From contig OX637799.1 of assembly GCA_951802425.1 (NCBI GenBank), forward strand, positions 1,736,001-1,800,000: a stretch of DNA of 64,000 bases, given 5' to 3'. How positions within the stretch are numbered: the stretch's first letter is position 1; each line of letters starts with the position of its first letter. Positions 18,041 through 46,700 of this stretch are shown piece after piece. The notes under the pieces were generated by a model. The model was not told where the DNA came from and ran no database searches. It was given only the letters and a program-made list of their open reading frames with translations. Position numbers and translations under genes: made by a program. This stretch comes from Clavaria fumosa. Taxonomy: Eukaryota > Basidiomycota > Agaricomycetes > Agaricales > Clavariaceae.

Positions 18041-18331
18041 TGTTAGGATCGCTTATGTAAGCCATCCCAAAGTGCAGTTGTGGAGAAACTGGGGAGGGTT
18101 GTTGGAAGGTCACATGACCTGTGGCTGGGTCGGATTATGTAATCATGTAAGATCACATGACCTGGGGCCTGGGTGCATCACGTGATCCGAGGGTCCAAGC
18201 GTGGGAATGCCAGCAAGTGCCGAAGCATTCGCTATAAGTACTTTCGCTTTTCCTTTTTTGTACTCTTTTCCCCTTATCTTAGTATTGTCGTCATGACCTT
18301 ACACTTAAGTTGTGTGAGACCCAGTCTGATA
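18041..18331 (+). repeat. 5' LTR of element 1 (alpha subtype)
   Basis: It starts TGTTAGGATC and ends CAGTCTGATA, about 291 bp. It has a TATA box (CTATAAGTAC near 18231) and CACGTG/CACATGACCT motifs upstream. The probable transcript start lies near CTTATCTTAG at 18273-18282. The alpha subtype reads TATAAGTACTTTCGC where beta reads TATATATACTACGTC. Confidence 0.88.
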
Positions 18332-21324: not shown

Positions 21325-21614
21325 TATCAGACTGGGTCTCACACAACTCAAGTGTAAGGTCATGATGACAATACTAAGATAAGGGGAAAAGGGTACAAGA
21401 ATGGAAAAGACGTAGTATATATAGTGAATGCTTCGGCATTTGCCGGCGTTCCCACGCTCGGACCTCTCGGATCACGTGATGCGCCCAGGCCCAGGTCATG
21501 TGATCTTACGATTATGAAATCTGACCACAGCCACAGGTCATGTGACCTTCCAACAACCCTCCCCAGTTTCTCCACAACTGCACTTTGGGATGGCTTACAT
21601 AAGCAATCCTAACA
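21325..21614 (-). repeat. 3' LTR of element 2 (beta subtype)
   Basis: On the + strand it reads TATCAGACTGGG..GATCCTAACA style ends, here ending AATCCTAACA. It is 290 bp, with the TATATATA box of the beta subtype. The polypurine tract of the - strand (AAGAGGGGGGTGA) lies directly next to it at 21615-21628. Confidence 0.88.
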
Positions 21615-21625
21615 TCACCCCCCTC

Positions 21626-23143
21626 TTAAGGCTGGGCGTCCCGACCAGCTAGCTTGGCCTTGTTGGGGTGGGAGAGGAAGAAGTCCCGGAGAACCAACAT
21701 TACGTTAGTGAGGTTCCTACGGGGCTCCCAAGTGTTTTCCTCCACTGGATATCCCAACCACTTCACCAAGTACTTCACCCCACATCCCACCTTCTTAACA
21801 TCAAGGATCGCCTCCACATCATACTCCAGGTAGTCGTCATCAATCGTAGGGGGTGGAGGGGGAGGCAGGTTCTGAGAAGGGAAGGAGGGGGGGTGGTATG
21901 GTGTCAACAGCAACTCATTGAAGACCTGATGGATGCGCCAGGCCTGAGGGAGCTTGAGGCAATACCCAGCAGGTCCCACCTTCTCCTCAACTGCAAAGGG
22001 GCCTGCTCTCTTGTTGTCAAGCTTTTTACAGGGCCGGTCCATCTTCAAGTTTCTAGTATCCAGCCAGACCAGATCTCCCTCAGAGTACTCCCGACTTGGG
22101 CGTTTCCCCTTATCGTAGCTCTTCTTCATCGCTGCCACCGCTTTCTCCATTGCCTCCTTGGCTGCTCTTCGGGACTCCGTGAGCTTAGCCATCCACTCGT
22201 CCGCTGCCGGGTTCACCTCAGAAGGTGGCCGGAGCCCCCCATTCCATGGGTGTCGTCCATAATCGAGGAAGAAAGGTGTCTGTCCTGTCGCTGAGTGCTC
22301 ACGATTATTGAGAGCAAACTCTGCAGTGGACAACCATTCAGCCCAGTCATCCTGGAGATGGTCCACGTAAGCCCGGAGATAGATCTCCATCTCCTGGTTC
22401 GCCCGTTCCATCTGTCCATCAGTCTGTGGATGAAAGGCAGTACTTGGATTTGCCTTTACCCGGATCATGGAGTAGAACTCCTTCATGAAGCAGGACACAA
22501 ACTGGGACCCCCGGTCACTCACAACCTTGTGAGGGACTCCATGGTCACAAAACACTCAATCCCGGAGGAGACGCGCTGCTCCAAGTCCTGTGAGGTCAAG
22601 CCCAATCGCTTCGAGCAGTGTCTGTTTCGTGAATTTGTCGACAATAACAAGGATGGCGTTATGTCCACGGGAGAGGGGGAGGGGACTGACTATGTCCCAT
22701 GAGATCACTGACCAGGGACCATCAGGCACCAGATGGGGGTGCAGTGGGGCAGCACACTTGGTACAGTCGGGCTTCGTCCGCTGGCATGTCTCACACCCCT
22801 GGGCATACTGATCCGCATCTTTTACCATGTCCGGCCACCAATAACCCTTCACTAGTGCTGCTCTCAACTTCCGGGGCCCAGGGTGTCCAGCAGCAGGGAG
22901 GTCATGCTCAAACTCGAGAACAGCCTCACGAGCTCCTAGGGGGACCCAAGTGACTATCCCCTTTTGCCAGAGTCCAGCACGATCTCATGTCCACTCATCA
23001 TCAAGCTCCTCCAGCTTCTGTATGTGTACCGTGCTATTTTTCTGGAGTAGCGTCTCCATTTCTGATGTGAATGACACATGGACTTCCGTTTCTGGGAAAA
23101 CCTGCACCGGTGCATCCTCCTCCACCATCTCTCCATAGTCCGG
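21626..23143 (-). pseudogene. integrase and chromodomain of element 2
   Basis: Reading leftward: HPGPRKLRAALVKGYWWPDM and CETCQ (HHCC zinc domain), the integrase core with WDIVSPLPL (first Asp), VVSDRGSQF (second Asp) and QMERANQEME (catalytic Glu), then a GPF-type segment and a C-terminal chromodomain (VEAILDVKKVGCGVKYLVKW, GYPVEENTWEP). TGA codons at 22556 and near 22988 replace CGA of intact copies. The protein continues into 33022-33334 on the far side of element 3. Confidence 0.85.
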
Positions 23144-24061
23144 TGTAGTGGGTATTACGGTTCTTGCTGCAACTGCTTGATTACAGTCAAGTCCTTCAGG
23201 GGTTCCTGTAAGGCGTTAGAGATTCACCAAACACCCTTGAGGATGTGGAGTATGAATTCAAAATATGTGAGAAATAGAAATATACGGTGTCCGGGATATT
23301 CTGCTATGTGTCCGATAAAATCCGATAAGGATGGTGCGATAAGACGAAGGGCCGGCAACGACGGAGGCCAGCGGATCGAAGGTTGCGACGACGGGTGAGC
23401 TTAGGTGAGGTTTCTAACAGAGAGAAGGGGTTCAGAAAGCTGTATTTCAGAGAGGTCCGGAGTGTACTTAAGTACAGTTCTGTAAGTACAGCAAATTGGA
23501 ATGTACGGAAATGTCCGGAAAACACATGGAACAGCGCCATGTCGCGTGAAGGGTTACATGAAGGAGTTATATCACAAGGGAAATGAGTAGCTCGGAGGAA
23601 TGAAATGTCCGATAACTAGCAAATGTCCGGACCGCTCATAAACTGAAGGAAAGTGGGGCTGGTACAGCAAAGGGGTACTAAGAACAATGGACAAGGTACT
23701 GCAAAGGGTTTGAAACGTTTAAACGATTGAATGGTTGAAAGGGATCAAAATATGAAATTTACAGCATGGTATATGAAATAAAGGAATGGGAATGGAATAG
23801 TGTGTATGTCGAGCGCTGACCGTGCTGGAGAGGTGAAATAGAGAGGCGTGGGCGGTGTGTGAGAGCGGTGGGCTGTGATCGTCACGGGGGATTGAAGACC
23901 GAAGTGTCCGACATCGGACATGTATCGGATACTATCGGTCGTTATCGGACGGTGTCGGATCGTTATCGGTTCGTATCGCACGTAATTTCTTTGGATCGCA
24001 AAACATCCGGATAGTCGGTATCTGTCATGTTTCCGTGTTTAGATCGCATATGGTCCTTACA
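23144..24061 (-). repeat. 3' LTR of element 3, 918 bp
   Basis: The ends are TGTAGTGGG..GGTCCTTACA with TGTA/TACA inverted termini. I compared it line by line with the right LTR and found no difference. The U3 part (right side) holds a phased TCGG array at 23912-23979. Confidence 0.92.
23912..23979. promoter_or_regulatory. helically phased TCGG array in U3 of element 3
   Basis: CGG triplets, mostly in the context TATCGG, begin at 23915, 23926, 23936, 23946, 23956 and 23967, with a related TATCGC at 23977. The spacing is 11, 10, 10, 10, 11, 10 bp, one DNA turn each. The same array is in the right LTR (32875-32937) and, with some CpG decay, in the element 4 LTRs. Confidence 0.6.
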
Positions 24062-24080
24062 TTCTCCCGGGGGCTGAAAA

Positions 24081-24100
24081 TGCAACCGCCCTCGGTTGCA
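24081..24100. promoter_or_regulatory. perfect palindrome with CCG-N4-CGG core upstream of the antisense gene
   Basis: Arms TGCAACCG and CGGTTGCA are separated by CCCT, 20 bp after the LTR and about 120 bp before the antisense start codon. An identical sequence lies in element 4 at 34260-34279. Everted CCG/CGG pairs are one known arrangement recognised by Zn2Cys6 proteins. Binding by the element's own protein is only a hypothesis. Confidence 0.5.
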
Positions 24101-24218
24101 ACCAAACAAGGCCAAATAACGGTTTGTTGATCGTGAAGTACGCGTCGTGTGGGTGCACATAGGTCCAAACACACCCTTGTGTTTTCTCCAGCGACAGCAA
24201 CACGTCGACTCTCCGACA

Positions 24219-25756
24219 ATGGAAAACTTCGATTCTTCAATCTTTCGAAACGCAGTCCAGGCGATGACCGAGGCGCAGGCCATGGCGCCGGGCGAGGAGT
24301 TGCCGGATCGGGGGCAGGATGGAGAGTGCGCGGAGTGGGTGGGGACGTATGCGGGTGACGCGGTGCGTGAACGAGAATCTTTCGTACTTTTTTTTGTATC
24401 GCACTGACAACGTTTTTAGGACGATTTTCTTGCCGGATATGTGGCAGCGATCGACGACGACGTGGAGGTGGACGAGGGACTCGTCCGGGTCGCGCGAAGG
24501 CTCAAGAAGTGGCGGAAGCTCCGCGGGGACGAGTGGTCCGCTGAGCGGACGAGAAGGCGGGAGGAGGTCGAGGCCGAGAAACAGCGCACGAGCGAGGAGA
24601 GGGCGGCTACTGAGCGGGCCGCAGCAGAGGCGGAGGCGGAGGAGAGGCGGGCTGCCGAGAAGAGGGCGCGCCTTGCCCGGGCGCGCTTAATTGTCGTAAG
24701 TGACAGCGACGACGAGGGCGAGGCGGCGGCGGCGGCAACAACGACGACGACGGGAGCGGCGGAGTCCGGTGCAGCGGCGGTAACAACGACGACGATATCA
24801 CCGGACGCCGGAGAGCTGCGTGTGGACGAGGTGGCGGCAGGGGAGGATCCGGACGGTCATCGGACCGTGTGGGGAACCGACGGGGTGACGCCCGTCGGTG
24901 TTATCGAGGCGGCGGCGGTGAGTGCGGTGGCCGGGGGAGGCGAGCAGTCGGTGGAGGAGCCGATGTTCGTGCACCGGGACGGTGCGCGGATGATGGCGAC
25001 TCCGGTGTGGGTGGAGATCGCGAGGCGGAAGGCAGCGGAGCGAGGGCGAGGGAGGAGAGGCGGGGCGAAGAGCGACATAGAGTCCCGGGCTGCGCGGCAG
25101 CCTGGAGATAAGGTGAGTGGTTAATTAAGATATGTGAGGCTTTTTCGACGTCTGATATAATGATTAGGAGCACGTTCCGGGGTGCAAGGAGTGCACCCGG
25201 AAGTGGCGGGCGTGCTACGGAGTGGAGGGGATAGCGTGCCGGTGGTGCCGGACGTATAAGGTATCGTGCAGTCTGTCGGCTGTGCGAGGTAAGTGGTATT
25301 CTTTTTATTTTTCATGATGAGACAAATGATAGGTGTGTTTCAGGAGCGAAAACAGAGAGAGCGGCGGTGTCCGGAACGGAAGGTATGTCGAGAAGGTATC
25401 GGGTCCGCATTTGCTAACGTATCGGAACAGGTCCGAAGGCGGCGGGAGCGAGCGGAAGTAAGAGGCCGAGGCGAGGTGCGACGCGGGTACCGGTTCGCGA
25501 GGAGACGACGCCGGAGGAGGAGGACGAGATTGAGGAGGATACCAGTGTGGAGCTGGTGGAGGAGCCGCCGGCAAAGAAGAAGAAGGCGGAGGCGGGACCA
25601 AGTCGGAAGGGTAAGGAGCGGGAGGTGGCGCGAGGGGTGTCCGGGAGGGAGGCGCTCGATAGGGCGCTGGAGATGATGGAGAGGGGGGCGGACCAGGTGA
25701 AGGCCGGAGCGGAGCTGCTCCGGATGCTCCTCCTTGGCGAGTCGTCCTCTAAGTAA
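24219..25756 (+). CDS. antisense spliced gene of element 3: Zn2Cys6-like cysteine-cluster protein
   Basis: Five exons, 24219-24362, 24420-25112, 25168-25288, 25344-25382 and 25431-25756, give 440 residues. All four introns are GT..AG. Exon 1 is a short acidic helix region. Exon 2 has a strongly charged coiled coil rich in Glu, Arg and Ala, followed by low-complexity Ala/Thr. Exon 3 carries C-x2-C-x6-C-x7-C-x2-C-x6-C (Cys 285, 288, 295, 303, 306, 313), which fits the fungal Zn2Cys6 pattern with basic residues between the first Cys pairs. Exon 5 has an acidic stretch, a basic NLS-like PAKKKK, and a C-terminal amphipathic helix. It lies opposite to gag-pol, between the pol stop and the 3' LTR. 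The homologous gene in element 4 keeps all splice sites. A nuclear DNA-binding regulator is plausible but unproven. Confidence 0.8.
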
Positions 25757-25898
25757 ATATTTTGTTTTTGTTTTTATATATGTTTTTCTTTTTCTATTTG
25801 GTATGGTATGTCGTGTGGGATAAGTGAGGAATGTGAGAATGTGAGAAAATGGTTGAAAGAACGTCGGGTATAAAGTTTGGACTTGTCCGAAATTTCGA

Positions 25899-25924
25899 TT
25901 TTTTTTTTTTTTTTTTTTTTTTTT
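25899..25924 (-). other. A tract downstream of pol (26 T on the + strand)
   Basis: Twenty-six consecutive T on the + strand are an A run on the pol strand, starting about 58 bp after the pol stop codon. Element 4 has 14 T at the same place (36121-36134). The tract sits between the convergent ends of pol and the antisense gene. Confidence 0.7.
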
Positions 25925-25982
25925 GAAGGTGTGAATCAATGTGAAGTATAGAAAAATGAAGGATATGATGGAGAAAAAATAC

Positions 25983-28900
25983 TTAATGGCGAGGCCGAAG
26001 GTTCCGGGTTGCTCCGGAGCGTTGCGGACGAGTTTCTGCAGTGTCGTCGTCGGTGGTTTCATTATCGGATTCATCGGATAGGTCAGCCGCTTGGTTTTGC
26101 TCATCTTCTCTGTCGATAGAGTTGGGTGACGCCTCGTGTATTTGATAGGGAGAGATGTCCTCGTTTATCTCCGTCGTTTGGTCGATGATAGAAGTGACCG
26201 GAATCGATGTTTGCGACCTCGGATAGTAGGGAATGATGCGGAAAGCTGCGTAGTGGATTTTGGAAACGGCGCCGTCGAGTTCCGAGAGAATATAGGCGCC
26301 ATATTGTGTTCGGCGAACGACGATCATCGGTCCGAAGAATCGCGGTTTTGTTTTTCGATTTAATTCCATTTCAACGGCCGAATTGCGGATCAATACCAAC
26401 GATCCGGGTTGGAAGTCGTAGTCGATAATAGACTTCCGGTGTGCGTCGATGAACTGCTTGACGGATTGTTTGCGGGCAGCGAGCACTTTATCGGCGATTG
26501 TTGCTAGATCTTCTTCTCGTTTTTGCAGTTGGCGGGCACGGAGGGCTATCAGTTCCGGAGTGGTCATCGGGGCGTCGGCGGTCGGAATTAAATATGTTGC
26601 TTCGGATATGTCGAAGGGGAAAAGCGGTTCGACGCCATGTGCGATGTAAAATGGGGAGTGGCCGGTGGACCGTTGGATCGTGGTTCGTTCTGCCCAAATG
26701 ACTGAGGGTAAAACGTCCGGCCATTTCGATTCGTCTCCATCTGCTGCTTTGATTAACGACTCACGGACCGATCGATGGGCACGTTCGATGACGCCGTTAG
26801 CGCGGGAGTTGTATCCGGATATACGGATGTGATGGATTCCGTACCGTTTCTTAAGGAAATCGAGGGCTTTGATAAATGGGGCTCCGTTATCCGTGATAAT
26901 CTCTTCTACTGCTCCCCATCGGCATAGTATATCTTCGAATATGAAGGTTCCGAGAAGTCGGGCGGTCTCGTTTCGTAGCGGTCTTGCTTCCGGATATGCG
27001 GATAACGAGCATCGGGCGTGGACGAGAAGTCGGAAACCGCGGGCTCTTGGTAGGAACATAGTATCAATGTGCGCTCGACGGAAAAGACCGGCCGGTGTAG
27101 CGACCGTCAGTGGAATGAAGATCTTCCGGATTTGCCGAGTTTGGCATTGGTGACAAGTTTTGACAAACCATTTTACGTCTTGATCCAGCACCGGCCACCA
27201 GAACCGATTTAGAATACGTGTCCGGATAACGTAAACGCCTTTGTGGCCGAGTGAATCGTGTGCCTCTGTGATAATTGCGAGACGTTTGTGGTCCGGAGGT
27301 ACTACTTGGTGGTATCCGTTAGGTCGGCGACGCCATAATTTGTCATCTAGGATGAAGAACTCGGATGCGGAGCGGACCAGTCGTCGGAACTGGTTTGCGT
27401 CAATGCCGGAGGGACGGATCGGGTTTCGAAGGAAAGATTCAATTTTGCGAATCTGTTCTTCTCTTTTGTTTGCTGCATCGGATCGGGGTATAAGGACGGC
27501 GGAAGATTCGTTCGGGGTCGGTGATTCCTCGGGTGGTACCGTCGAATTGAGTAGCGTCGATCCTGTGTAAACTTTGAAGCGAGTATGGGTGATGCCGGCG
27601 AGTCGTGTCTCGGATGTGTAGGAAGCGTCCGGTGCTCGATTCATGTGTTCCATGGCGAATACGTAGCTCCGATCGATCCATTCTTCGTGATCTTCAGACT
27701 CGGTATCTTCTTCACCATCTGCGGCACGTCGGCGTGATAGTCCGTCGGCTCCGGTGTGCTTATCTGCGGGAATATGAACAAGATCGAAATCGAAGAGTAG
27801 TATACCGGCAATCCATCGATTCATGGCAGCGTTGGGTTGAATGTCCGGATTGTTTAGCATACCCTTAATGAACTTCGTGTCCATTTCGACAGTAAATTTC
27901 GGAAGACCTATAAGGTAAATCCGGTACGACCGAAGTGCGCGGAAGAGTCCGTATAATTCGATTTTTGCTTGTGAGTATCGGGCCTCGCGTTCGTTCCAGG
28001 TAATGGAGCCAAAGCGGGAGGGATATCGTATTCCATCTTCTCCAATTTGGAAGAGTGCGAAACCAACGGCGATATTTGATGAGTCGACGGCGAGGATTAC
28101 GGGTTGTCCGGAGCGGTAGTCGATTGGTCGGATGGCGGATGAGTTCAGAATCGCGTGTTTGAGTCGGTCCATCGAGTTTTGTTCTTCTTTTTCGAATCTG
28201 AATGGCACGTCCTTGCGAGTTAGACTGACAAGAGGTCGGGCAAGTACGGCGTAGTTTTTAATGAATATCCGGAGTAGTCCGCAAACCCCTAAAAATGATC
28301 GGACATCGGTCAGGGTTTTGCAAGGAGGCCAGTCCCGGATACGCTGAACGTTGGAGGCATCCGGAACTCGTCCTTCGTATGTGCACGTATGTCCGGTAAC
28401 GACTGCTTCGGGAACGCAAATTGTCGTTTTCTTGCCGTTAAAGGTTCCTCCGACTTTCTTGATTCGTTGGAGCACCCGGTTGACGTTATTTAAATGCTCC
28501 CAAACAAATCGTCGTATTTGCGGATTCTCAGGGATCGTCTCGTAGGTGCCGTCCGGAAGCTCGTATCGGGTTTCCGGGCCCTTGATCGCTACATCGTCTA
28601 CGAATGGGATGGTTACGTGCGGAATTTCATCTTGTAGAACATGCGTGACGTCTCCATGCATAATCTGCGTCGCGTTGGTGTATCCCATGGGGACGCAGGT
28701 GAGCCGTTTTGCTCCGAGAGGGGTTTGAAACGTGGTGAGGTCTCGGCTTCGTTCGTCCAGAGACCGCTGATCGAAGGAGACGAAAAGGTCGAGTGATCCG
28801 TAACATCCGCGTCCGGCGAATGATTCCGCAAAAACCTCCATTATCGGGGGGACCGCGGAATCGCCGATAGTGATTTTGTTAAGCGGCTGGAGGTTGTGCA

Positions 28901-29720
28901 CGAGTCGGAGAGACTTTCTGTCTTTCTTTAACACGCAAAACCACTGGGACCGATAAGAAGAGTTGGATTCTTCATAAACGCCGGCTGCGATCTTTTCCCG
29001 GATTACTTTGAGAACTTCGTCGTAAATACCGGGGGGAATCGGTATATTTTTGAAGATCCAAGGGATATGTTCGACTGTCGGGATAATAATCGGATCGAAG
29101 TATTTTGCGTCGAATCGTCCTTTTTCGGTCTCTTTCCAAGCGAAGGCGTCTTCCTGGGCTTTAATAAGATGGTGAACGAGTTTTTCTTCCTCCGGCCATA
29201 AGAATCCGGTGGGGTTGGCGTTGTGCGTGTCTTTCCGGTTTTGAGTGTATCGAAGACCGGGGGTGAAATCGGGGGGATGGGTCGGAAGAGTTGGCATATC
29301 GGCTAGGGGGTCCGGGTGTCGGCGTCGGACAATCCGGAATTCTTTGGGTACTGTCGCTTTGATCGGATTGACGCGATTCGCGACTTTCTTATATTTCTTT
29401 CCCAAGTAAACTGGAAGAACGGCGTCCGTAGACAGGGAATTTATTTCGGGGGTTTTGTTGTACAAGGGGGTTGCAACATTTGGACGCGACGGTTCACGTC
29501 CGATAGCGACTGGGGAATCAGCGGAATCGAGAGAAACGTCCGAGATACTGATACAGGGGAAGGGGTCGAGAGAGACTGGGTTTATAAGGGAAAACGATAA
29601 GGGAACGTGAACGGAAGTAGGAAAAATGGCTGGAGTCTCGTATCTGGGTATAGCTTCCGTGTCCGCATTGATCGGAGGTAAGTCCGTTGGTTTGCGGACA
29701 TTCGAGGCTCCAGCTCTCAA
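25983..29720 (-). CDS. pol of element 3: reverse transcriptase, RNase H, integrase
   Basis: It is an uninterrupted frame of about 1,245 codons. RT motifs are WIFKNIPIPPGIYDEVLKV, LRLVHNLQPLNK, VPMGYTNATQIMHGD and an active site FVDD (near residue 373) instead of the usual YVDD/YIDD. RNase H has ILAVDSSNIAVGFALFQIG and the ADGLSRR end. Integrase shows HDSLGHKG..CHQCQ (HHCC), HIDTMFLP, ITDNGAPF and NGVIERAHRSV (D, D, E), then a GPMIV segment. The C-terminus is acidic with no chromodomain. The frame is -1 relative to gag and begins at the gag stop (TTTTTGAGAGC). There is no ATG there, whereas element 4 has TTTTTGATGGC, so expression by -1 slippage or by restart must be considered. Confidence 0.9.
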   Translation of the reverse strand: MRAGASNVRKPTDLPPINADTEAIPRYETPAIFPTSVHVPLSFSLINPVSLDPFPCISISDVSLDSADSPVAIGREPSRPNVATPLYNKTPEINSLSTDAVLPVYLGKKYKKVANRVNPIKATVPKEFRIVRRRHPDPLADMPTLPTHPPDFTPGLRYTQNRKDTHNANPTGFLWPEEEKLVHHLIKAQEDAFAWKETEKGRFDAKYFDPIIIPTVEHIPWIFKNIPIPPGIYDEVLKVIREKIAAGVYEESNSSYRSQWFCVLKKDRKSLRLVHNLQPLNKITIGDSAVPPIMEVFAESFAGRGCYGSLDLFVSFDQRSLDERSRDLTTFQTPLGAKRLTCVPMGYTNATQIMHGDVTHVLQDEIPHVTIPFVDDVAIKGPETRYELPDGTYETIPENPQIRRFVWEHLNNVNRVLQRIKKVGGTFNGKKTTICVPEAVVTGHTCTYEGRVPDASNVQRIRDWPPCKTLTDVRSFLGVCGLLRIFIKNYAVLARPLVSLTRKDVPFRFEKEEQNSMDRLKHAILNSSAIRPIDYRSGQPVILAVDSSNIAVGFALFQIGEDGIRYPSRFGSITWNEREARYSQAKIELYGLFRALRSYRIYLIGLPKFTVEMDTKFIKGMLNNPDIQPNAAMNRWIAGILLFDFDLVHIPADKHTGADGLSRRRAADGEEDTESEDHEEWIDRSYVFAMEHMNRAPDASYTSETRLAGITHTRFKVYTGSTLLNSTVPPEESPTPNESSAVLIPRSDAANKREEQIRKIESFLRNPIRPSGIDANQFRRLVRSASEFFILDDKLWRRRPNGYHQVVPPDHKRLAIITEAHDSLGHKGVYVIRTRILNRFWWPVLDQDVKWFVKTCHQCQTRQIRKIFIPLTVATPAGLFRRAHIDTMFLPRARGFRLLVHARCSLSAYPEARPLRNETARLLGTFIFEDILCRWGAVEEIITDNGAPFIKALDFLKKRYGIHHIRISGYNSRANGVIERAHRSVRESLIKAADGDESKWPDVLPSVIWAERTTIQRSTGHSPFYIAHGVEPLFPFDISEATYLIPTADAPMTTPELIALRARQLQKREEDLATIADKVLAARKQSVKQFIDAHRKSIIDYDFQPGSLVLIRNSAVEMELNRKTKPRFFGPMIVVRRTQYGAYILSELDGAVSKIHYAAFRIIPYYPRSQTSIPVTSIIDQTTEINEDISPYQIHEASPNSIDREDEQNQAADLSDESDNETTDDDTAETRPQRSGATRNLRPRH

Positions 29721-31714
29721 AAATCCGGATGCGGTTTCTTGTTCTTCAAGGATTTGCGGATCGGGATTCGCTCCTTCGTTGGCACTATGATTCTTTCTCC
29801 GGTGTTTGGATCGTTGAGAATAAGGTCCTGGGCCCCGTGGGGATGGTCAATCGTTTGGGAACCGGTTAACATGAAAAACGGTCGTCCGACAAGAACCTCG
29901 CAGGGCAACGTGTCTGCTACTTGCATTTGAACATGGAATGTGCACGGACCGATCTGTAGGGGGAAATTCTTGATGAGTCCGAGGGTCGGAGCGATGGTGC
30001 CATGAGAGGATTCCATGTGAATAACGTTCTCGGAGTGTAGTGGGTTGCCGAGTTTCTCCCAAACGTCTCTTCGCATTGCCACGATTGAGCTGCCTTGGTC
30101 GAGCAGGCACTCCGCGGCGATCCGGTTGTCCAATATCCCTTCTACGATGCGGAGCGGAGCAGCGTCGACGGCGACAACAAGATCGGAGGTGTCCGGGACC
30201 GTAATGTTTGTATAGAGCGTATCCTGTACGATGGACGCGGTGACCGGAACGCGACGAGCGGTAACCACATCCTTCATCTTTTTGCGGATGTCTCCGGAAA
30301 TGGCGAGTAGTTCGCGAGGTGTGACGCGGACTGGCATGTCGAGTGCGCGATCGAATACTTGTTGAACGGTTACCGGATTTTCGATCGGAGCTTGGTAATG
30401 GTACTGGACGTCGGGTCGTTCGATTTTCTCCGGCTTTGATGGACGAGTGACCTGAGGCGGCGTAATAACAACGGCGGGTGGGGGCGGTAACCTAGATGGC
30501 TGAGGATCGGTATTCCTGGGTGTGGGTGCTTTCCTTTTGCCCTTGTCTACTTTCTTCGCGACATCGTTTGCAAAGGTGCGGACCATGTTTTCCAACACGG
30601 TATTCTCGTCATCTTCCTCGTCCGAATCGTCTTCCATGTCCGGGGGGTGAGCGGATTGTCCGATCGGCTGTGCTTCAAATACCGCGGTTGTCGCCGGTTG
30701 CGTGTTCTGGGATTGGTATGTAGCGTAGTACTTGTCGAAGCGCTCGGATAGGTTGTTCCCTGAGATAGTGCCTGGCAAATATCGTCCGGAGGGGAGACAA
30801 ATCCTGCCTTCTGTGTTCCGTATACATTTGCCGGACTTAATGTATTCGAGGGCCTTCGGACAGGCACTAACAAAATGACCTATTTCCGAACAGAAATTAC
30901 ACGTCCGGCCTGCGGGAGAGTTCGTTGTCCGGGGAGCGGAGTGTCTTGCCGGTTCGAGAGATTGGGCTGTCAAAATCGATTCCAGGCGAGCCATTGTGGA
31001 AGCGAATGTTGCCCATGCTGCGGACATATCAAATTCTTCCTTCTTGACTACCGGTTTCGTTTCTCTCCCGGGGGCTGAAGATGCGAGACGGACGGGTCCG
31101 GAAAGTTGATCGGTTGTCGCAGAGTGGGGGGACGTCGAGGAGAGAAGAAATTCAGCTGCACCATGTACTTCATTCATGGGGTAAGGATCCTCCGGATGGT
31201 GGTTTGGTAGTATGATAGCGAGTCGGCTTTCGATCCGACGCCTTGTATGATCCCCAAATCCGAGGATGTAAAGTCGGTTCCTGTCATTTGTGGACATACG
31301 CTGTGATGTGATCAAGTGCGAGGTGATCCGGAGAAAGTCCCGATAGTATTCTCCGTGTTCTGCGCGCGTGTAAACTCCCTTTTGGGCCGAGTCCGATATG
31401 AAACGGTCCAGGTCGGCGACGGAAAATAAGCGACCTCCATCAGATCCTGGATAAAGTCGTCGGACGGCCGCTTTGAAGGTATCCCACGTCCATACCGGGT
31501 CCGGGTCAGGTGAAAGAGTCTCCCAGAGGAGACACGTATCGGTGTCGAGATAGTGCTTGGCGTACCGAATTAAATCGGGTTCTGGAACGTCCGGGTTGAC
31601 GCCGGTGAGCACGATGTCGATGTCCTCGAAGTACCGGTTGAGGTGTGTCGGTACTCCGTCAAAGGCAGGGGCCCCGTGGGCGCCACGGAGCGGATATCTC
31701 GGTTGGTTGGCCAT
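29717..31714 (-). CDS. gag with zinc knuckle and aspartic protease, element 3
   Basis: The 665-residue frame starts MANQPRYPLRGAHGAPAF. The N-terminal half is the capsid-like domain (WDTFKAAVRRLYPGSDGG, LDRFI, YYRDFLRITSHL). A CCHC knuckle CNFCSEIGHFVSAC lies near residue 271. The C-terminal part is a retropepsin-like protease with LLDQGSS near residue 539 and EVLVGRPFF. Placing protease at the end of gag is seen in several gypsy lineages. Element 4 encodes a 665-residue homologue. Confidence 0.88.
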   Translation of the reverse strand: MANQPRYPLRGAHGAPAFDGVPTHLNRYFEDIDIVLTGVNPDVPEPDLIRYAKHYLDTDTCLLWETLSPDPDPVWTWDTFKAAVRRLYPGSDGGRLFSVADLDRFISDSAQKGVYTRAEHGEYYRDFLRITSHLITSQRMSTNDRNRLYILGFGDHTRRRIESRLAIILPNHHPEDPYPMNEVHGAAEFLLSSTSPHSATTDQLSGPVRLASSAPGRETKPVVKKEEFDMSAAWATFASTMARLESILTAQSLEPARHSAPRTTNSPAGRTCNFCSEIGHFVSACPKALEYIKSGKCIRNTEGRICLPSGRYLPGTISGNNLSERFDKYYATYQSQNTQPATTAVFEAQPIGQSAHPPDMEDDSDEEDDENTVLENMVRTFANDVAKKVDKGKRKAPTPRNTDPQPSRLPPPPAVVITPPQVTRPSKPEKIERPDVQYHYQAPIENPVTVQQVFDRALDMPVRVTPRELLAISGDIRKKMKDVVTARRVPVTASIVQDTLYTNITVPDTSDLVVAVDAAPLRIVEGILDNRIAAECLLDQGSSIVAMRRDVWEKLGNPLHSENVIHMESSHGTIAPTLGLIKNFPLQIGPCTFHVQMQVADTLPCEVLVGRPFFMLTGSQTIDHPHGAQDLILNDPNTGERIIVPTKERIPIRKSLKNKKPHPDF

Positions 31715-32082
31715 TTGTATTGGTGCGTGGGGCGGTGAGTGAACTTCGTCTGGTGAATTCTGAGGTGTTTCGGGCGGGAAATGAAGGATGTCTGGTTCAA
31801 GGGGAAGTGGTGTAAGCGGTGAGTGTGGTTGTTCGAAGGTCTGTGGTAGTGAGGGATCCGGAGTGGTGAAACTCGTGTGGGAGTAGACAATGGATGAGAT
31901 ACTGGGAATGTCCGATGGAAGAAGGTGGGAAGTTTCAATTACTTCTCCGGGGGGTTCGGAGGGCGGTGGTTCTGTGATCGGATTCGGGTTTCGACTTCTC
32001 AGGCGTTCGGAGCGTCGAGGCTGAGGAGCGGATGAGCCTCTGGGAATCCTTGAGGGTGGTAGTGAAGACGTCTTGTTGAACC

Positions 32083-32099
32083 CCTCGCGGTGGGCTCCA
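32083..32099 (-). other. primer-binding site of element 3 (tRNA-Lys)
   Basis: Read on the - strand it begins TGGAGCCCACC and complements 17 nt: the last 14 nt of the tRNA-Lys(UUU) gene at 5087-5100 plus CCA. It lies 4 nt from the 5' LTR. Confidence 0.85.
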
Positions 32100-32103
32100 G
32101 AAT

Positions 32104-33021
32104 TGTAGTGGGTATTACGGTTCTTGCTGCAACTGCTTGATTACAGTCAAGTCCTTCAGGGGTTCCTGTAAGGCGTTAGAGATTCACCAAACACCCTTGA
32201 GGATGTGGAGTATGAATTCAAAATATGTGAGAAATAGAAATATACGGTGTCCGGGATATTCTGCTATGTGTCCGATAAAATCCGATAAGGATGGTGCGAT
32301 AAGACGAAGGGCCGGCAACGACGGAGGCCAGCGGATCGAAGGTTGCGACGACGGGTGAGCTTAGGTGAGGTTTCTAACAGAGAGAAGGGGTTCAGAAAGC
32401 TGTATTTCAGAGAGGTCCGGAGTGTACTTAAGTACAGTTCTGTAAGTACAGCAAATTGGAATGTACGGAAATGTCCGGAAAACACATGGAACAGCGCCAT
32501 GTCGCGTGAAGGGTTACATGAAGGAGTTATATCACAAGGGAAATGAGTAGCTCGGAGGAATGAAATGTCCGATAACTAGCAAATGTCCGGACCGCTCATA
32601 AACTGAAGGAAAGTGGGGCTGGTACAGCAAAGGGGTACTAAGAACAATGGACAAGGTACTGCAAAGGGTTTGAAACGTTTAAACGATTGAATGGTTGAAA
32701 GGGATCAAAATATGAAATTTACAGCATGGTATATGAAATAAAGGAATGGGAATGGAATAGTGTGTATGTCGAGCGCTGACCGTGCTGGAGAGGTGAAATA
32801 GAGAGGCGTGGGCGGTGTGTGAGAGCGGTGGGCTGTGATCGTCACGGGGGATTGAAGACCGAAGTGTCCGACATCGGACATGTATCGGATACTATCGGTC
32901 GTTATCGGACGGTGTCGGATCGTTATCGGTTCGTATCGCACGTAATTTCTTTGGATCGCAAAACATCCGGATAGTCGGTATCTGTCATGTTTCCGTGTTT
33001 AGATCGCATATGGTCCTTACA
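32104..33021 (-). repeat. 5' LTR of element 3, 918 bp
   Basis: Same length and, on direct line-by-line reading, the same sequence as 23144-24061. It holds the phased TCGG array at 32872-32939. Confidence 0.92.
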
Positions 33022-33334
33022 CCGGTCTCTGGGAGAGTGCATCTGCCTTTGTATTTGACTTGCCAGTGTGATACTTTATCTCAAAGTCAAAGCACTGGAG
33101 CTCTCCAACCCAACGAACCTGCCTCGGCTTCAACTTCTGGGGCTTCTGGAAGTACTGGAGGTTTGCATGGTCTGTCCAGATCTCGATCTTCTCCTCTGCT
33201 CCAATGAGGTATGCTCGCCACTCACGAAGTGCCCGAATCACAGCCAAGAACTCCTTGTCATACACATCGTAGTTCTTCTCAGCTGCAGTGAGGGCCTTGG
33301 AGATATAGTCAACAACTCTCCAGGTTCCATCCGT
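33022..33334 (-). mobile_element. element 2, middle fragment (RNase H region)
   Basis: About 313 bp of pol (WRVVDYISKALTAAEKNYDVYDKEFLAVIRAL, LQYFQKPQKLKPRQVRWVGE and SNTKADALSQRP). It is flanked on the left by the CCGG duplication of element 3 and on the right by CCGT, where element 4 begins. The same stretch is present again near 45290-45603 in the next chromovirus body, which shows that two separate elements are involved. Confidence 0.85.
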
Positions 33335-34240
33335 TGTAGTAGGCTGTACAGGTGTTGGCTGCAAATAGATGTTCGCGGCTGGGTTCTTCAGGGGGTCTTA
33401 TTACACAATGGGTACACTAGACAGAACCTTGGAGGATGTGGAGGTTGAGTGCAAAAGGTTCAGAGAGTGAAAATATACGTTGTCCGGAGTATCCGGTATC
33501 GGATCCGATAGAGTCCGATGTTTGGATCAAAGGTTCGAGGGGCCGGCAACGACGAAGGCCAGTGGATCAATAGGTACGACGAAAGGTGAGCTTGCTAAAA
33601 ATTACAGCACGATGTGGGCGTTCAAAAAGCTGGATTTCCATATAGTCTGAAGTGTGCTTAAGTACAGTTCTGTAAGTACAGCAAATTGGAATGTACAGAA
33701 ATGTCCGGAAAACATATGGGACAGCGCCATGTCACGTGAAGGGTTATATGGAGGAGTTATATCACAAGGGAATTGAGTAGCTCGGAGGAATGAAATGTCC
33801 GATGTCCGGACCGCTCGTAAACTGAAGGAAAGTGGGGCTGGTACAGCAAAGGGGTATTAGGAACAATGGGCAAAGTACTGCAAAGGGTTTGAAACGTTCA
33901 AATGATTGAATGGTTGAAAGGGATCACAATATGAAATTTACAGCATGTTATATGAAATAAAGGAATGGGAATGGAATAGTGAGTATGTCGAGCGCTGACC
34001 ATGCTGGAGTGATGAAATAGAAAGGTGTGGGTGGTGTGTGAGACCTGCGGGCTGTGATCGTCACGGGGGATTGAAGACCGGGGAGTCCGATATCGGATAT
34101 ATATCAGATGCTATTGGACGTTATTGGACAGTGTCGGATGGTTATCGGATCGTATCGCGCGTAATTGCCTTGGATCGCAAAATATCCGGATAGTCGGTTT
34201 CTGTCATATTTCCGTGTTTAGACCACATATAATCCTTACA
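33335..34240 (-). repeat. 3' LTR of element 4, 906 bp
   Basis: The ends are TGTAGTAGG..AATCCTTACA. It is related to the 918-bp LTR but clearly diverged. The TCGG array recurs at 34091-34158 with the same 10-11 bp phase. Several CGG are changed to TGG or CAG, as expected for CpG decay. Confidence 0.9.
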
Positions 34241-34395: not shown

Positions 34396-35979
34396 ATGGA
34401 GAACTTCGACACTGTAATCTTTCAGAACGCAGTTCAGGCCATGGTGGAAGCACAGGCCGTGGCTCCGGGGAACGTTCTGCCTGAGTCAGGCCAAGATGCT
34501 GAATATGCGGAGTGGGTATGGGGGTATGGAACGGATGTGGTGCGCGACAGTATTTTTCGTTCGTGGTGTTGAGCTGACATATATTCTTTTTAGGATGATT
34601 TTCTTGCAGGATTTGTGGCTGCGATTGAGGAGGATGTAGAGGTAGATGAGGGGCTCGTGGCCGTCATGCGAAGACTGAAGAGGTGGAAGAAGCAGCGTGG
34701 TGAAGTGTGGGCCACCGAGCTGGCGAAGAAAAACAAGGAGGCCGAAGCCGAAAAACAGCGCGAGAGCGAGGAGAGGGCGGCCACCGAGCGGGCCATCGCG
34801 GAGGCGGAGGAGAGAAGAACGGAGGCGGCGAAGGTTGCCGAGAAGAGGGCACGTCTTGCCCAGGTGTGCCTGATCGTTGTTAGTGACAGCGACGATGATG
34901 GCGAGGCGGCAGCGGCAACAGCAACAACAACGACGGGGGCGGCGGAGTCTGGTGCAATGGCAGCGGCGACGACGACGGTATCGCCAGACGCTGCGGAGCT
35001 GCGTGGGGACGAGGTAGCAATTGCGGAGGTGGAGACAGGAAAGGTACGGGTGGCAGTGGCGGAAGATTGGGATGGTCATCGGACCGTGTGGGGAACCGAC
35101 GGGGTGACACCCGTCGGTGTTATCGAAGCGGCAGCCGTGGGTGCGGTGGCCGTGGGAGGGCAGCAGACGGTGGAGGTGCCCCTCACGTTGGAGGCTCGGG
35201 TGGGCGGGCAGATGACGGCGACTCCGGTGTGGGTGGAGATGGCGAGGCGGAAGGCGGCGGAGCGGGGGCGAGGGAGGAGGAGCGGAGCGGGGGCGGACAT
35301 AAAGTCCCGGGCTGCGCGGCAGCCTGGAGATAAGGTGAGTGATCTATTAGAATGTGTGAGGGTTTTAGATATCTGATCTGATGAGTAGGAACACGATCCG
35401 GTTTGTGAGGAGTGCGCCCAGAAGCGGCGGGCGTGTTACGGAGTGGAGGGGGTAGCATGCCGGTGGTGCCGGACCTACAAGGTGTTGTGTAGTCTGTCGG
35501 CTGTACGAGGTAAGTGGTATTCTTTTTATTTCTTGATGAACCAATCTGAAAGGTGTGTTTCAGGAGTGAAAGCCGAGAAGGTCGCAGTGTCCGGTGCTGG
35601 AGGTAAGTCAAGAGAGTGCCGGATCTGTATCGGCTAACGTAGCGGAGTAGGTCCGAAGGCAGCAGAAGCGACCGCGAGCAAAAGGCCGAGGCGAGGTGCA
35701 ACGTGGGCGCTGGTCCGTGAGGAGACGACACTGGAGGAGGAAGAGGAGGATGAAATTGAGGACGATGATAGCGTGGAGTTGGTGGAGCCGCCAGCGAAGA
35801 GGAGGAAGGCGGAGGCGGGTCCCAGCCGAAAGGGAAAGGAGTGGGAGTTGGAGCCAGGAGTGTCTGGAAGGGAGGTGCTGGAGAGAGCACTTGAGATGAT
35901 GGAGAGGGGGGCGGATCAGGTGAAGGCTGGGGCGGAGCTTCTCTGGATGCTCCTTCTTGGCAGGTCATCCGCTAAATAA
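34396..35979 (+). CDS. antisense spliced gene of element 4: Zn2Cys6-like cysteine-cluster protein
   Basis: Exons 34396-34539, 34594-35334, 35389-35509, 35564-35602 and 35651-35979 give 457 residues. Exons 1, 3 and 4 have exactly the same lengths as in element 3. Exons 2 and 5 differ by multiples of three. All six Cys are kept (301, 304, 311, 319, 322, 329) although neighbouring residues differ (for example TRKWRA against AQKRRA). The YGVEG-x-ACRWCRTYKV core is nearly invariant. The product again has an acidic start, charged coiled coil, low-complexity middle, acidic stretch, basic cluster (AKRRKAEAG) and conserved C-terminal helix. The reading frame survives while pol of the same element is broken. 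Confidence 0.8.
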
Positions 35980-42661: not shown

Positions 42662-43473
42662 TGTAGTAGGCTGTACAGGTGTTGGCTGCAAATAGATGTT
42701 CGTGGCCGGGTTCTTCAGGGGGTCTTATTACACAATGGGTACACTAGACAGAACCTTGGAGGATGTGGAGGTTGAGTGCAAAAGGTTCAGAGAGTGAAAA
42801 TATACATTGTCCGGAGTATCCGGTATCGGATCTGATAGAGTCCGATGTTTGGATCGAAGGTTCGAGGGGCCGGCAACGACGAAGGCCAGCGGATCAATAG
42901 GTACGACGAAAGGTGAGCTTGCTAAAAATTACAGCACGATGTGGGTGTTCAAAAAGCTGGATTTCCGTATAGTCCGAAGTGTGCTTAAGTACAGTTCTGT
43001 AAGTACAGCAAATTGGAATGTACAGAAATGTCCAGAAAACATATGGAACAGCGCCATGTTGCGTGAAGGGTTATATGGAGGAGTTATATCACAAGGGAAT
43101 TGAGTAGCTTGGAGGAATGAAATGTCCGATGTCCAGACCACTCGTAAACTGAAGGAAAGTGGGGCTGGTACAGCAAAGGGGTATTAGGAACAATGGGCAA
43201 AGTACTGCAAAGGGTTTGAAACGTTCAAATGATTGAATGGTTGAAAGGGATCACAATATGAAATTTACAGCATGTTATATGAAATAAAGGAATGGGAATG
43301 GAATAGTGAGTATGTCGAGCACTGACCATGCTGGAGTGATGAAATAGAAAGGCATGGGCGGTGTGTGAGACCTGTGGGCTGTGATCGTCATGGGGGATTG
43401 AAGACCGGGGAGTCCGATATCGGATATATATCGGATGCTATCAGACGTTATCAGACGGTGTCGGATGGTTATC
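42662..43473 (-). repeat. truncated 5' LTR of element 4
   Basis: It matches 33335 onward but ends after GGATGGTTATC. The missing last part (about 90 bp) was separated by the element 5 insertion and then lost. Confidence 0.87.
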
Positions 43474-43775: not shown

Positions 43776-46700
43776 TTAAGGCTGGGCGTCCCGACCAGCT
43801 AGCTTGGCCTTGTTGGGGTGAGCAAGGAAGAAGTCCCGGAGAAGCAGTGCCACATTGGTGAGGTTCCGTCGTGGCTCCCAAGTGTTCTCCTCCACAGGGT
43901 ATCCCAACCACTTCACCAGGTATCTCACTCCACGCCCCACCTTCTTAACATCAAGGATCGCCTCCACATCATACTCCAAGTGGTCATCATCAATTGTAGG
44001 GGGCGGAGGGGGAGGCAGGTTCTGAGAAGGGAAGGAAGGGGGGTGGTATGGTGTCAACAGCAACTCATTGAAGACCCGATGGATGCGCCAGGCCCGAGGG
44101 AGCTTGAGGCGATACCCAGCAGGTCCCACCTTCTCCTCAACTGCAAAGGGGCCTGCTCTCTTGTTGTCAAGCTTTTTACAGGGCTGGTCCATCTTCAAGT
44201 TTCTAGTATCCAGCCAGACCAGATCTCCCTCAGAGTACTCCCGACTTGGGCGTTTCCCCTTATCGTAGCTCTTCTTCATCGCTGCCACCGCTTTCTCCAT
44301 TGCCTCCTTGGCTGCTCTTCGGGACTCCGTGAGCTTAGCCATCCACTCGTCCGCTGCCGGGTTCACCTCAGAAGGTGGCCGGAGCCCCCCATTCCATGGG
44401 TGTCGTCCATAATCGAGGAAGAAAGGTGTCTGTCCTGTCGCTGAGTGCTCACGATTATTGAGAGCAAACTCTGCAGTGGACAACCATTCAGCCCAGTCAT
44501 CCTGGAGATGGTCCATGTAAGCCTGGAGATAGATCTCCATCTCCTGGTTCGCCCGTTCCGTCTGTCCATCAGTCTGCGGATGAAAGGCAGTACTTGGATT
44601 TGCCTTTACCCGGATCATGGAGTAGAACTCCTTCATGAAGCGGGACACGAACTGGGACCCCCGGTCACTCACAACCTTGTGAGGGACTCCATGGTCACGA
44701 AACACTCGATCCCGGAGGAGACGTGCTGCTCCAAGTCCTGTGAGGTCGAGCCCGATCGCTTCGAGCAGTGTCTGTTTCGTGAATTTGTCGACAATAACAA
44801 GGATGGCATTATGTCCACGGGAGAGGGGGAGGGGACCGACTATGTCCCATGAGATCACCGACCAGGGACCATCGGGCACCAGATGGGGGTGTAGTGGGGC
44901 AGCACGCTTGGTACGGTTGGGCTTTGTCCGCTGGCATGTCTCACACCCCTGGGCATACCGATCCGCATCTTTTACCATGTCCGGCCACCAATAACCCTTC
45001 ACTAGTGCTGCTCTCAACTTCCGGGGCCCAGGGTGTCCAGCAGCGGGGAGGTCATGCTCAAACTCAAGAACGGCCTCACGAGCTCCTAGGGGGACCCAAG
45101 TGACTATCCCCTTTCGCCAGAGTCCAGCACGATCTCGTGTCCACTCATCATCAAGCTCCTCCGGCTTCTGTATGTGTACCGCGCTATTTTTCTGGAGTAG
45201 CGTCTCCATTTCCGATGTGAATGACACACGGACTTCCGTTTCCGGGAAAACCTGCACCGGTGCATCCTCCTCCACTATCTCTCCATAGTCCGGTCTCCGG
45301 GAGAGTGCATCTGCCTTTGTATTTGACTTGCCAGTGCGATACTTTATCTCAAAGTCAAAGCACTGGAGCTCTCCAACCCAACGAACCTGCCTCGGCTTCA
45401 ACTTCTGGGGCCTCCGGAAGTACTGGAGGTTTGCATGGTCCATCCAGATCTCGATCGTCTCCTCTGCTCCAATGAGGTATGCTCGCCACTCGCGAAGTGC
45501 CCGAATCACAGCCAAGAACTCCTTGTCGTACACATTGTAGTTCTTCTCAGCTGCAGTGAGGGCCTTGGAGATATAGTCAACAACTCTCCAGGTTCCATCC
45601 GTCTGCTGCTGCGAGAGCACTCCACCAGTTGCCAGGTTGCTTGCATCTGTCTCTACCTTCCATCTCCCTTTGTCCTGAGGCAGAGCCAAGACCGGGGCTG
45701 ATACGAGTGCCTGGCGGAGATCTCGGAAGGCTGCTTCCTCCTCCTCCTCCCATTTCCATGGAACATTCCCAGTCAGCCAGAAGAGTGGCTTTGCCCGGGC
45801 AGAAAGATTCGGGATGTGCCGGCGGAGGTAGTTCAGCATCCCATTGAACCTCTGGACATCCTTCACATTCTTGGGACGTGGCCAATCTCGGACTGCTGCA
45901 CCCTTGGCCGGATCATGCTCTAGTCTGTTGTGGGAGATCTTCATCCCCAGGAAGATGATCTCACTCTTCTCAAACTCGCATTTACTGAGTTTGAGACACA
46001 ACCCATTCTCTCCAAACTTCCTCAAGACCCGGTCCATCCAGTACCGGTGTGTAGCCAAGTCCTCTGCAAACACAATGACATCATCCACATAGGCCCTCAC
46101 ATGTCCTCCTGCAATCTCCTCCCTCAACACATGATTCATGAAGCATTGGAAGGTAGCAGGGGCATTCTGCAGTCCAAACCACATGACAGCTGGTTTGAAG
46201 AGTCCACGGGGTGTCAGGAAGGTGCAGCAGTGCTGGTGCTTGGGCCAGACCTGCATAGATGGGAAACCTCCCTTTGCATCAATCTTAGAGTAGATCAATG
46301 CTCCTTTAAGCACATCCACTGTGTCTCAGATGTGGGGGAGGGGGTACTTGTCCTTAATCAGGTGTGCATTCAGCCTCAAGTAGTCGATGATTGGCCGCAG
46401 CTTGTCCTTCTCATGTTTGAAGAAGAAGGGGCTGGCATATGGGGATTTCGAGGGCTGGATTCATCCAGAAGCAAGCTGCTCATCCACCCAACGGTTCATC
46501 TCCACCATCTCCTGCCGTGTCAAAGAATACAGCTTGGAAGAAAGGTGTTCAGGGTCCTTTTTGAACTCGATCTTAATATCGAAGTCTGGTCGGGAGCGGG
46601 GAAGTTCATCCCACTTCGCTTCACTAAACACCAAAGGGTAGCGGCTGGGCCAATCGGGGGTAGGGCCAGAGTTGGGAAAACAGGTGTCCAGAATATTTGT

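Follow-up and report, generated by a model that had tools for sequence, protein, structure and literature searches.

Several long terminal repeat (LTR) retrotransposons carry an extra open reading frame (ORF) between pol and the 3' LTR, antisense to gag-pol. According to the review PMC7264820, these include gene23 of Grande and the ORFs of RIRE2, Retand and PvRetro13 in plants, and brtn of Boty in the fungi Botrytis and Sclerotinia; the Boty work is also cited by PMC8365987 and PMC4227169. The same review gives no clear database similarity for the plant and Boty ORFs except an SMC domain in PvRetro13 and a transposase 28 domain in Retand, and it calls the function of antisense extra genes in LTR elements unknown (PMC7264820). 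Here we describe such a gene in element A, a retrotransposon in a 64,000-nt stretch of the Clavaria fumosa genome (contig OX637799.1, positions 1,736,001 to 1,800,000), referred to below as the window. The antisense gene is real, element-borne and under protein-level selection. Like the ORFs listed above, it lies between pol and the 3' LTR, is antisense to gag-pol, and is conserved and kept in most family copies, which places it, by layout and conservation, with the aORF-3R class (PMC7264820). Unlike them, it has four conserved predicted introns and a recognisable, predicted DNA-binding fold, the comparison being one of layout and not of sequence. The original prediction had named some plant gypsy elements as precedents; plants do provide them, but not plants alone, Boty brtn being fungal (PMC7264820). 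Antisense extra genes were already known; the four predicted introns and a candidate DNA-binding domain set this one apart, and a candidate target array in the LTR is new here. Searches of the open-licence literature turned up no retrotransposon described as having an antisense Zn2Cys6 gene.

Two other systems bear comparison. HBZ of the human T-cell leukaemia viruses is a spliced antisense nuclear factor that regulates its own LTR (PMC3185765). The gene of element A is likewise antisense and near the 3' LTR, and splicing, a property of the HBZ transcript, is predicted for it; HBZ is a basic leucine zipper protein that works via CREB and p300/CBP, unlike the zinc cluster predicted here, and no sequence relation is claimed (PMC3185765). 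Of an HBZ-like regulator, with a spliced antisense transcript that starts in the 3' LTR, element A shows GT-AG introns and a conserved leader at the sequence level. VANC, an anti-silencing protein of the Arabidopsis VANDAL transposons, binds short motifs that occur in repeats and causes loss of methylation (PMC5735166). As a working idea, element A may resemble it in combining an element-encoded protein with a short repeated motif in its own non-coding DNA, a candidate target found in 13 of 16 LTRs. VANC belongs to a DNA transposon and to another protein family, and its binding and hypomethylation have been shown, whereas ours is an LTR element for which the comparison concerns CpG content only (PMC5735166).

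The antisense gene and its copies

Element A is a complete LTR retrotransposon (23144-33021) with gag-pol on the minus strand. Its LTRs, 918 nt each, end in TG..CA and are flanked by a 4-bp duplication, CCGG; because they are 100% alike, the insertion is recent. Between the LTRs, pol has the reverse transcriptase, RNase H and integrase order of Ty3/Gypsy elements: RVT_1 (just under its cut-off), RNase H and Integrase_H2C2, with a weak match to the integrase core (rve_3, E 0.022). The antisense gene lies on the plus strand at 24219-25756, with the pol stop (25983) on one side of it and the 3' LTR (23144-24061) on the other. It starts with the ATG at 24219 and its stop codon ends at 25756, the five exons giving 440 codons free of stops. 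All four introns (24363-24419, 25113-25167, 25289-25343 and 25383-25430; 57, 55, 55 and 48 nt) are GT-AG on the plus strand and read CT..AC on the sense (gag-pol) strand. Re-reading of the sequence thus reproduced the coordinates, exon number, splice sites and 440-residue length originally predicted. A second copy is present in the neighbouring element B, whose 3' LTR begins at 33335 and whose other LTR copy is cut at 43473; its introns measure 54, 54, 54 and 48 nt (Table 1).

Table 1. Positions of the antisense genes and of the parts of element A in the window
Feature	Position	Strand	Basis or remark
Exon 1 of antisense gene (48 codons)	24219..24362	+	gene model
Exon 2 (231 codons; charged helical stretch, acidic LIVVSDSDDEGE)	24420..25112	+	gene model
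Exon 3, holding the six-cysteine cluster	25168..25288	+	gene model, alignment, domain and structure searches
Exon 4	25344..25382	+	gene model
Exon 5 and stop; basic clusters, C-terminal leucine-rich stretch	25431..25756	+	gene model
Leader, LTR to antisense ATG; predicted promoter/5' untranslated region of antisense gene	24062..24218	+	conservation
Six TCGG sites, U3 of 3' LTR	23914..23969	+	spacings 11, 10, 10, 10, 11; copy in 5' LTR at +8960
3' LTR of element A	23144..24061	-	918 nt; identical over 918 nt to 32104-33021
5' LTR of element A	32104..33021	-	LTR pair comparison
pol frame of element A (reverse transcriptase, RNase H, integrase zinc domain)	25983..29720	-	ORF and domain matches
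gag-like frame of element A	29717..31714	-	DUF4100 and aspartyl protease matches weak, both below cut-off
Antisense gene of element B (457 codons)	34396..35979	+	introns 34540-34593, 35335-35388, 35510-35563, 35603-35650

The 48.8-Mb assembly (17 contigs), whose short introns and Zn_clus genes are in keeping with a fungus, was searched for further copies. The DNA search returned 42 match pieces at about 40 places, and the protein search at least 200 pieces, of which one copy can yield several. We assembled a near-copy set from the best 28 of the 42 DNA pieces, window copy included; picked as the best, it is uninformative on decayed copies. All 28 have an intact gene in which none of the eight splice dinucleotides is lost; the six-cysteine pattern survives in 27. 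A diversity set of 20 further loci was hand-picked across the range of similarity, down to L024 and L026, whose longest matched gene pieces are 46% and 53% identical to A. In every one of these 20 loci, pol is antisense to the gene. One of them, L028, is a near-identical copy with an internal deletion in the antisense gene, and was left out of the alignment of 21 genes (A, B and L009-L027). Among the rows retaining at least one side of the intron, GT-AG stands at homologous places in 17/18, 19/20, 20/20 and 21/21 for introns 1 to 4 (our count). Of the 21 genes, six have an uninterrupted frame from start codon to stop (A, B, L009, L011, L013 and L026), two more (L017 and L021) have an open frame and a lost start codon, and the other 13 have stops, frameshifts or missing parts. 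Conservation extends to the leader, where 16 of 17 family loci match A at 82-95% identity over positions 24062-24190 (67% in L024); its LTR-side end holds a polypurine tract and an older sense-strand hairpin.

Calculations on the open copies reveal purifying selection. The ratio of nonsynonymous to synonymous rates (dN/dS) is 0.19-0.48 over the 28 pairs of 8 open copies: it is 0.42-0.48 within the group L009/L011/L013/L017, and the remaining 22 pairs fall at 0.19-0.31. As a guard against CpG-driven bias, the observed substitutions were re-placed on random exon sites of the same trinucleotide context. From A to B there are 132 amino-acid changes, compared with 187.2 +/- 6.8 expected, and from A to L026 there are 214, compared with 273.4 +/- 7.6; in each of the eight directed comparisons, none of 1,000 simulations was as low as observed. 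Moreover, gene distances correlate with pol distances (Mantel r 0.86, 0/5000 permutations, 16 loci, with L014, L016, L019, L023, L025 and L028 left out), and therefore the gene travels with the element. The second window copy, the constant orientation relative to pol, the selection and this correlation bear out the claim that the gene belongs to the element. Could the gene instead be made up of open frames that arose by chance in GC-rich DNA, or be a host gene fragment carried along as a passenger? The window does contain many long open frames, in several frames and on both strands, and Pfam gives nothing above cut-off for the full-length protein, but introns, frame and amino acids are conserved across families and the 28 best copies are all intact. 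We consider this origin extremely unlikely, a chance ORF being ruled out by the dN/dS values and the context-matched simulations. The same data speak to a role for the antisense transcript itself, which might pair with the genomic RNA to feed or block RNA silencing, the protein being secondary. Such roles are possible for antisense RNA of LTR elements and are raised in PMC7264820; codon-level constraint and the conserved introns and cysteines nevertheless show selection on the protein, and we regard an RNA-based role as improbable.

The introns are retained in the copies examined. Since they read CT..AC on the sense strand, the genomic RNA is expected to stay unspliced there, and the introns to be kept through reverse transcription. 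A genome search for the exon 2-3 junction pattern with up to three mismatches gave two places, both of them the end of an unspliced intron. With joined exon ends as query, the matches of all 40 scored copies fall into pieces split at the junctions, and no intron-less copy was found, as the original prediction that the introns are not lost in retrotransposition would have it. Placement where only the antisense transcript could splice them is a simple route for a retroelement to own introns. Outside this genome, six related metagenome proteins (P0001-P0006) are 38-67% identical to exon 2; in five of them the reading frame runs on past the exon 2 donor, giving GDK-VS, and P0005 stops short of it. 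Viral contigs scanned with pol and with exon 2 yielded no relative. In A, a plus-strand run of 26 T (25899-25924) lies past the antisense stop and short of the pol stop; no role is claimed for it, its length varying from 5 to 25 nt in 13 family loci.

Exon 3 as a candidate zinc cluster

The fungal Zn2Cys6 domain (PF00172) has the pattern C-x2-C-x6-C-x5-12-C-x2-C-x6-8-C. Exon 3 of A reads C-x2-C-x6-C-x7-C-x2-C-x6-C, confirming the motif originally noticed in the antisense protein, and B has it too. All six cysteines are present in 20 of 20 exon-3 copies, one of which (L022) has a 3-residue loop deletion. A short helix is predicted after each CxxC, and all 20 PDB matches of the exon-3 model in Foldseek are Zn2Cys6 domains. 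At E up to 10, Zn_clus is found in 16 of 16 exon-3 members. In cysteine spacing, predicted helices and Foldseek matches, exon 3 thus resembles the fungal Gal4-type proteins; unlike them, it is retrotransposon-encoded, has its cluster mid-protein and scores mostly below the Pfam cut-off. Other results limit the assignment. The structure model is weak, exon 3 of A reaches 11.2 bits against a Zn_clus cut-off of 21, and only one of ten singly scored members passes it (L019, 21.7 bits). Nor did the full-length A and B proteins have a Pfam match, and a PDB sequence search gave no Zn2Cys6 chain among the matches listed. We take exon 3 to be, likely, a Gal4-type Zn2Cys6 cluster, in line with the domain originally proposed. 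Conserved basic clusters of the KRPR and AK(K/R) types would allow nuclear entry.

A TCGG array in the LTR

Zn2Cys6 proteins are known to recognise CGG triplets. The LTR of A contains six TCGG sites, all on one strand and spaced by 10-11 bp, about 95-150 nt from its inner end and, in the 3' LTR, about 250-305 bp upstream of the antisense ATG. The array was spotted first and the statistics were run afterwards. Six TCGG in 80 nt were reached by none of 400 dinucleotide shuffles of the A LTR, and clustering is beyond chance (reached by at most 3/400 shuffles) in 13 of 16 LTRs, the exceptions being those of B (60/400), L018 (37) and L027 (16). The B and L018 LTRs have C-to-T type changes inside TCGG sites, and no array was seen in the L019 and L024 LTRs. 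The sites are phased: 216 TCGG pairs within 80 nt, not independent because the LTRs are related, have a vector strength of 0.71 at 10.5 bp, and A with its far relative L026 gives 0.82. Among the controls, all CGG (0.22) and CCG (0.29) are low, but CCGA (26 pairs) reaches 0.50 at 10.5 and 0.84 at 10, so that the controls are mixed. Genome-wide counts of phased TCGG were rejected as a specific signal (902 against 155 for the reversed motif), the places listed including unrelated repeats; another spacing (197 against 18) was likewise unspecific.

These sequence patterns suggest that the TCGG array is a candidate target of the antisense protein. We propose that antisense transcription would start from the LTR/leader side, that the transcript would be spliced at the four predicted introns, that exon 3 would fold as a zinc cluster, and that the predicted protein would enter the nucleus and bind the array. 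With the array in U3 of both LTRs, one protein could act on its own gene and on gag-pol. That the antisense gene encodes a nuclear Zn2Cys6 protein binding evenly spaced CGG sites in its own LTR and regulating transcription of the element has, in our estimate, a probability of about 55%. By analogy, the best reading of the system is a self-encoded LTR-binding regulator with an HBZ-like layout and possibly a VANC-like use. The original prediction, a self-encoded nuclear regulator, is kept for the LTR as a hypothesis only, to which the phased array adds new, indirect evidence. Because element A offers a candidate DNA-binding domain together with a candidate target array, exists in dozens of near-identical copies and has sister elements that lack the gene, the role of antisense genes becomes directly testable here.

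The array might instead serve host Zn2Cys6 proteins, the antisense product being a real nuclear or chromatin factor that works elsewhere, in integration, in the particle or on the silencing machinery. At E up to 0.05, Zn_clus matches the host genome 27 times, the cysteine cluster is mid-protein and scores poorly with Zn_clus, and the strict CpG integration preference described below calls for some element protein, integrase being the simplest candidate. On the other hand, in 13 of the 16 LTRs tested the array is found along with gene and element, and the fold search yields DNA-binding Zn2Cys6 domains only. We hold this alternative to be less probable than self-regulation, though it deserves serious consideration.

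A palindrome beside the LTR, GCAACCG-CCCT-CGGTTGC, was considered as an operator for the antisense protein in particular and dismissed. The genome contains 59 exact copies of it and none of the reversed control, but gene-less sister elements have a counterpart beside their LTR, CAACTG-GGGA-CAGTTG. Its fold is unexceptional relative to shuffles (z -0.46 and -1.39), and it is probably an old sense-strand feature. The hairpin palindrome (24062-24110, minus strand; 2785-2828 in the sister locus L105) is common to elements with and without the antisense gene.

Gene-less relatives, CpG content and integration sites

The sister lineage was sampled at two (L105 and L106) of nine candidate DUF4100 loci with no listed antisense gene nearby. 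These are the nearest gene-less relatives, with pol 44-46% identical; L105 has one long pol frame and that of L106 is broken. The 2.7 kb (L105) and 2.5 kb (L106) after pol gave no trace of the antisense gene beyond one chance-level match (E 0.75), and no TCGG was found after pol. Observed/expected CpG is 0.05 in L105 and 0.08 in L106. It is 1.43 for gag-pol of A, 1.21 for that of B, 0.66-1.22 for the 20 family loci and 0.40-0.64 for four stretches of other window elements, partly related to each other. Because L105 and L106 are nearly CpG-free, the missing array is a confounded contrast. L105, near CpG-free, yet keeps its long open pol frame.

The difference in CpG content is what would be predicted, element age and history being uncontrolled, if the protein were a sequence-specific anti-silencing factor. 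The CpG-containing CGG sites, aligned on one face of the LTR, would be occupied by the predicted Zn2Cys6 protein, itself dependent on splicing of the antisense transcript, and CpG methylation would be kept off the LTR; the gene-bearing lineage would thereby stay CpG-rich as its gene-less relatives lost nearly all CpG. If true, VANC would have a counterpart among retrotransposons, one that uses a fungal transcription-factor fold in an HBZ-like layout. We regard it as a doubtful, speculative extension of the self-regulation proposed above.

Integration occurs at CpG. The left flank is NCGN in all 20 fetched copies (among L045-L084). Both ends were found for 18 copies, and 16 of these have a matching 4-bp duplication, always NCGN; in the window copy it is CCGG (23140-23143 and 33022-33025). 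Of 16 LTRs taken across families, 11 have NCGN as their left flank and the other 5 have N(CA/TG)N, which looks like a decayed form of it. The CpG frequency of the window is 5.8%. Another window element, taken as a control for target duplication, showed no matching duplication and is uninformative as such.

Other elements lie in the window. The pol of another LTR element (43776-46319) has a chromodomain (E 7.5e-14), and none was found in pol of element A. About 3 kb, possibly a DNA transposon, is bounded by inverted repeats (87 nt, 99%; 140 nt, 89%) at 18041-18331 and 21325-21614.
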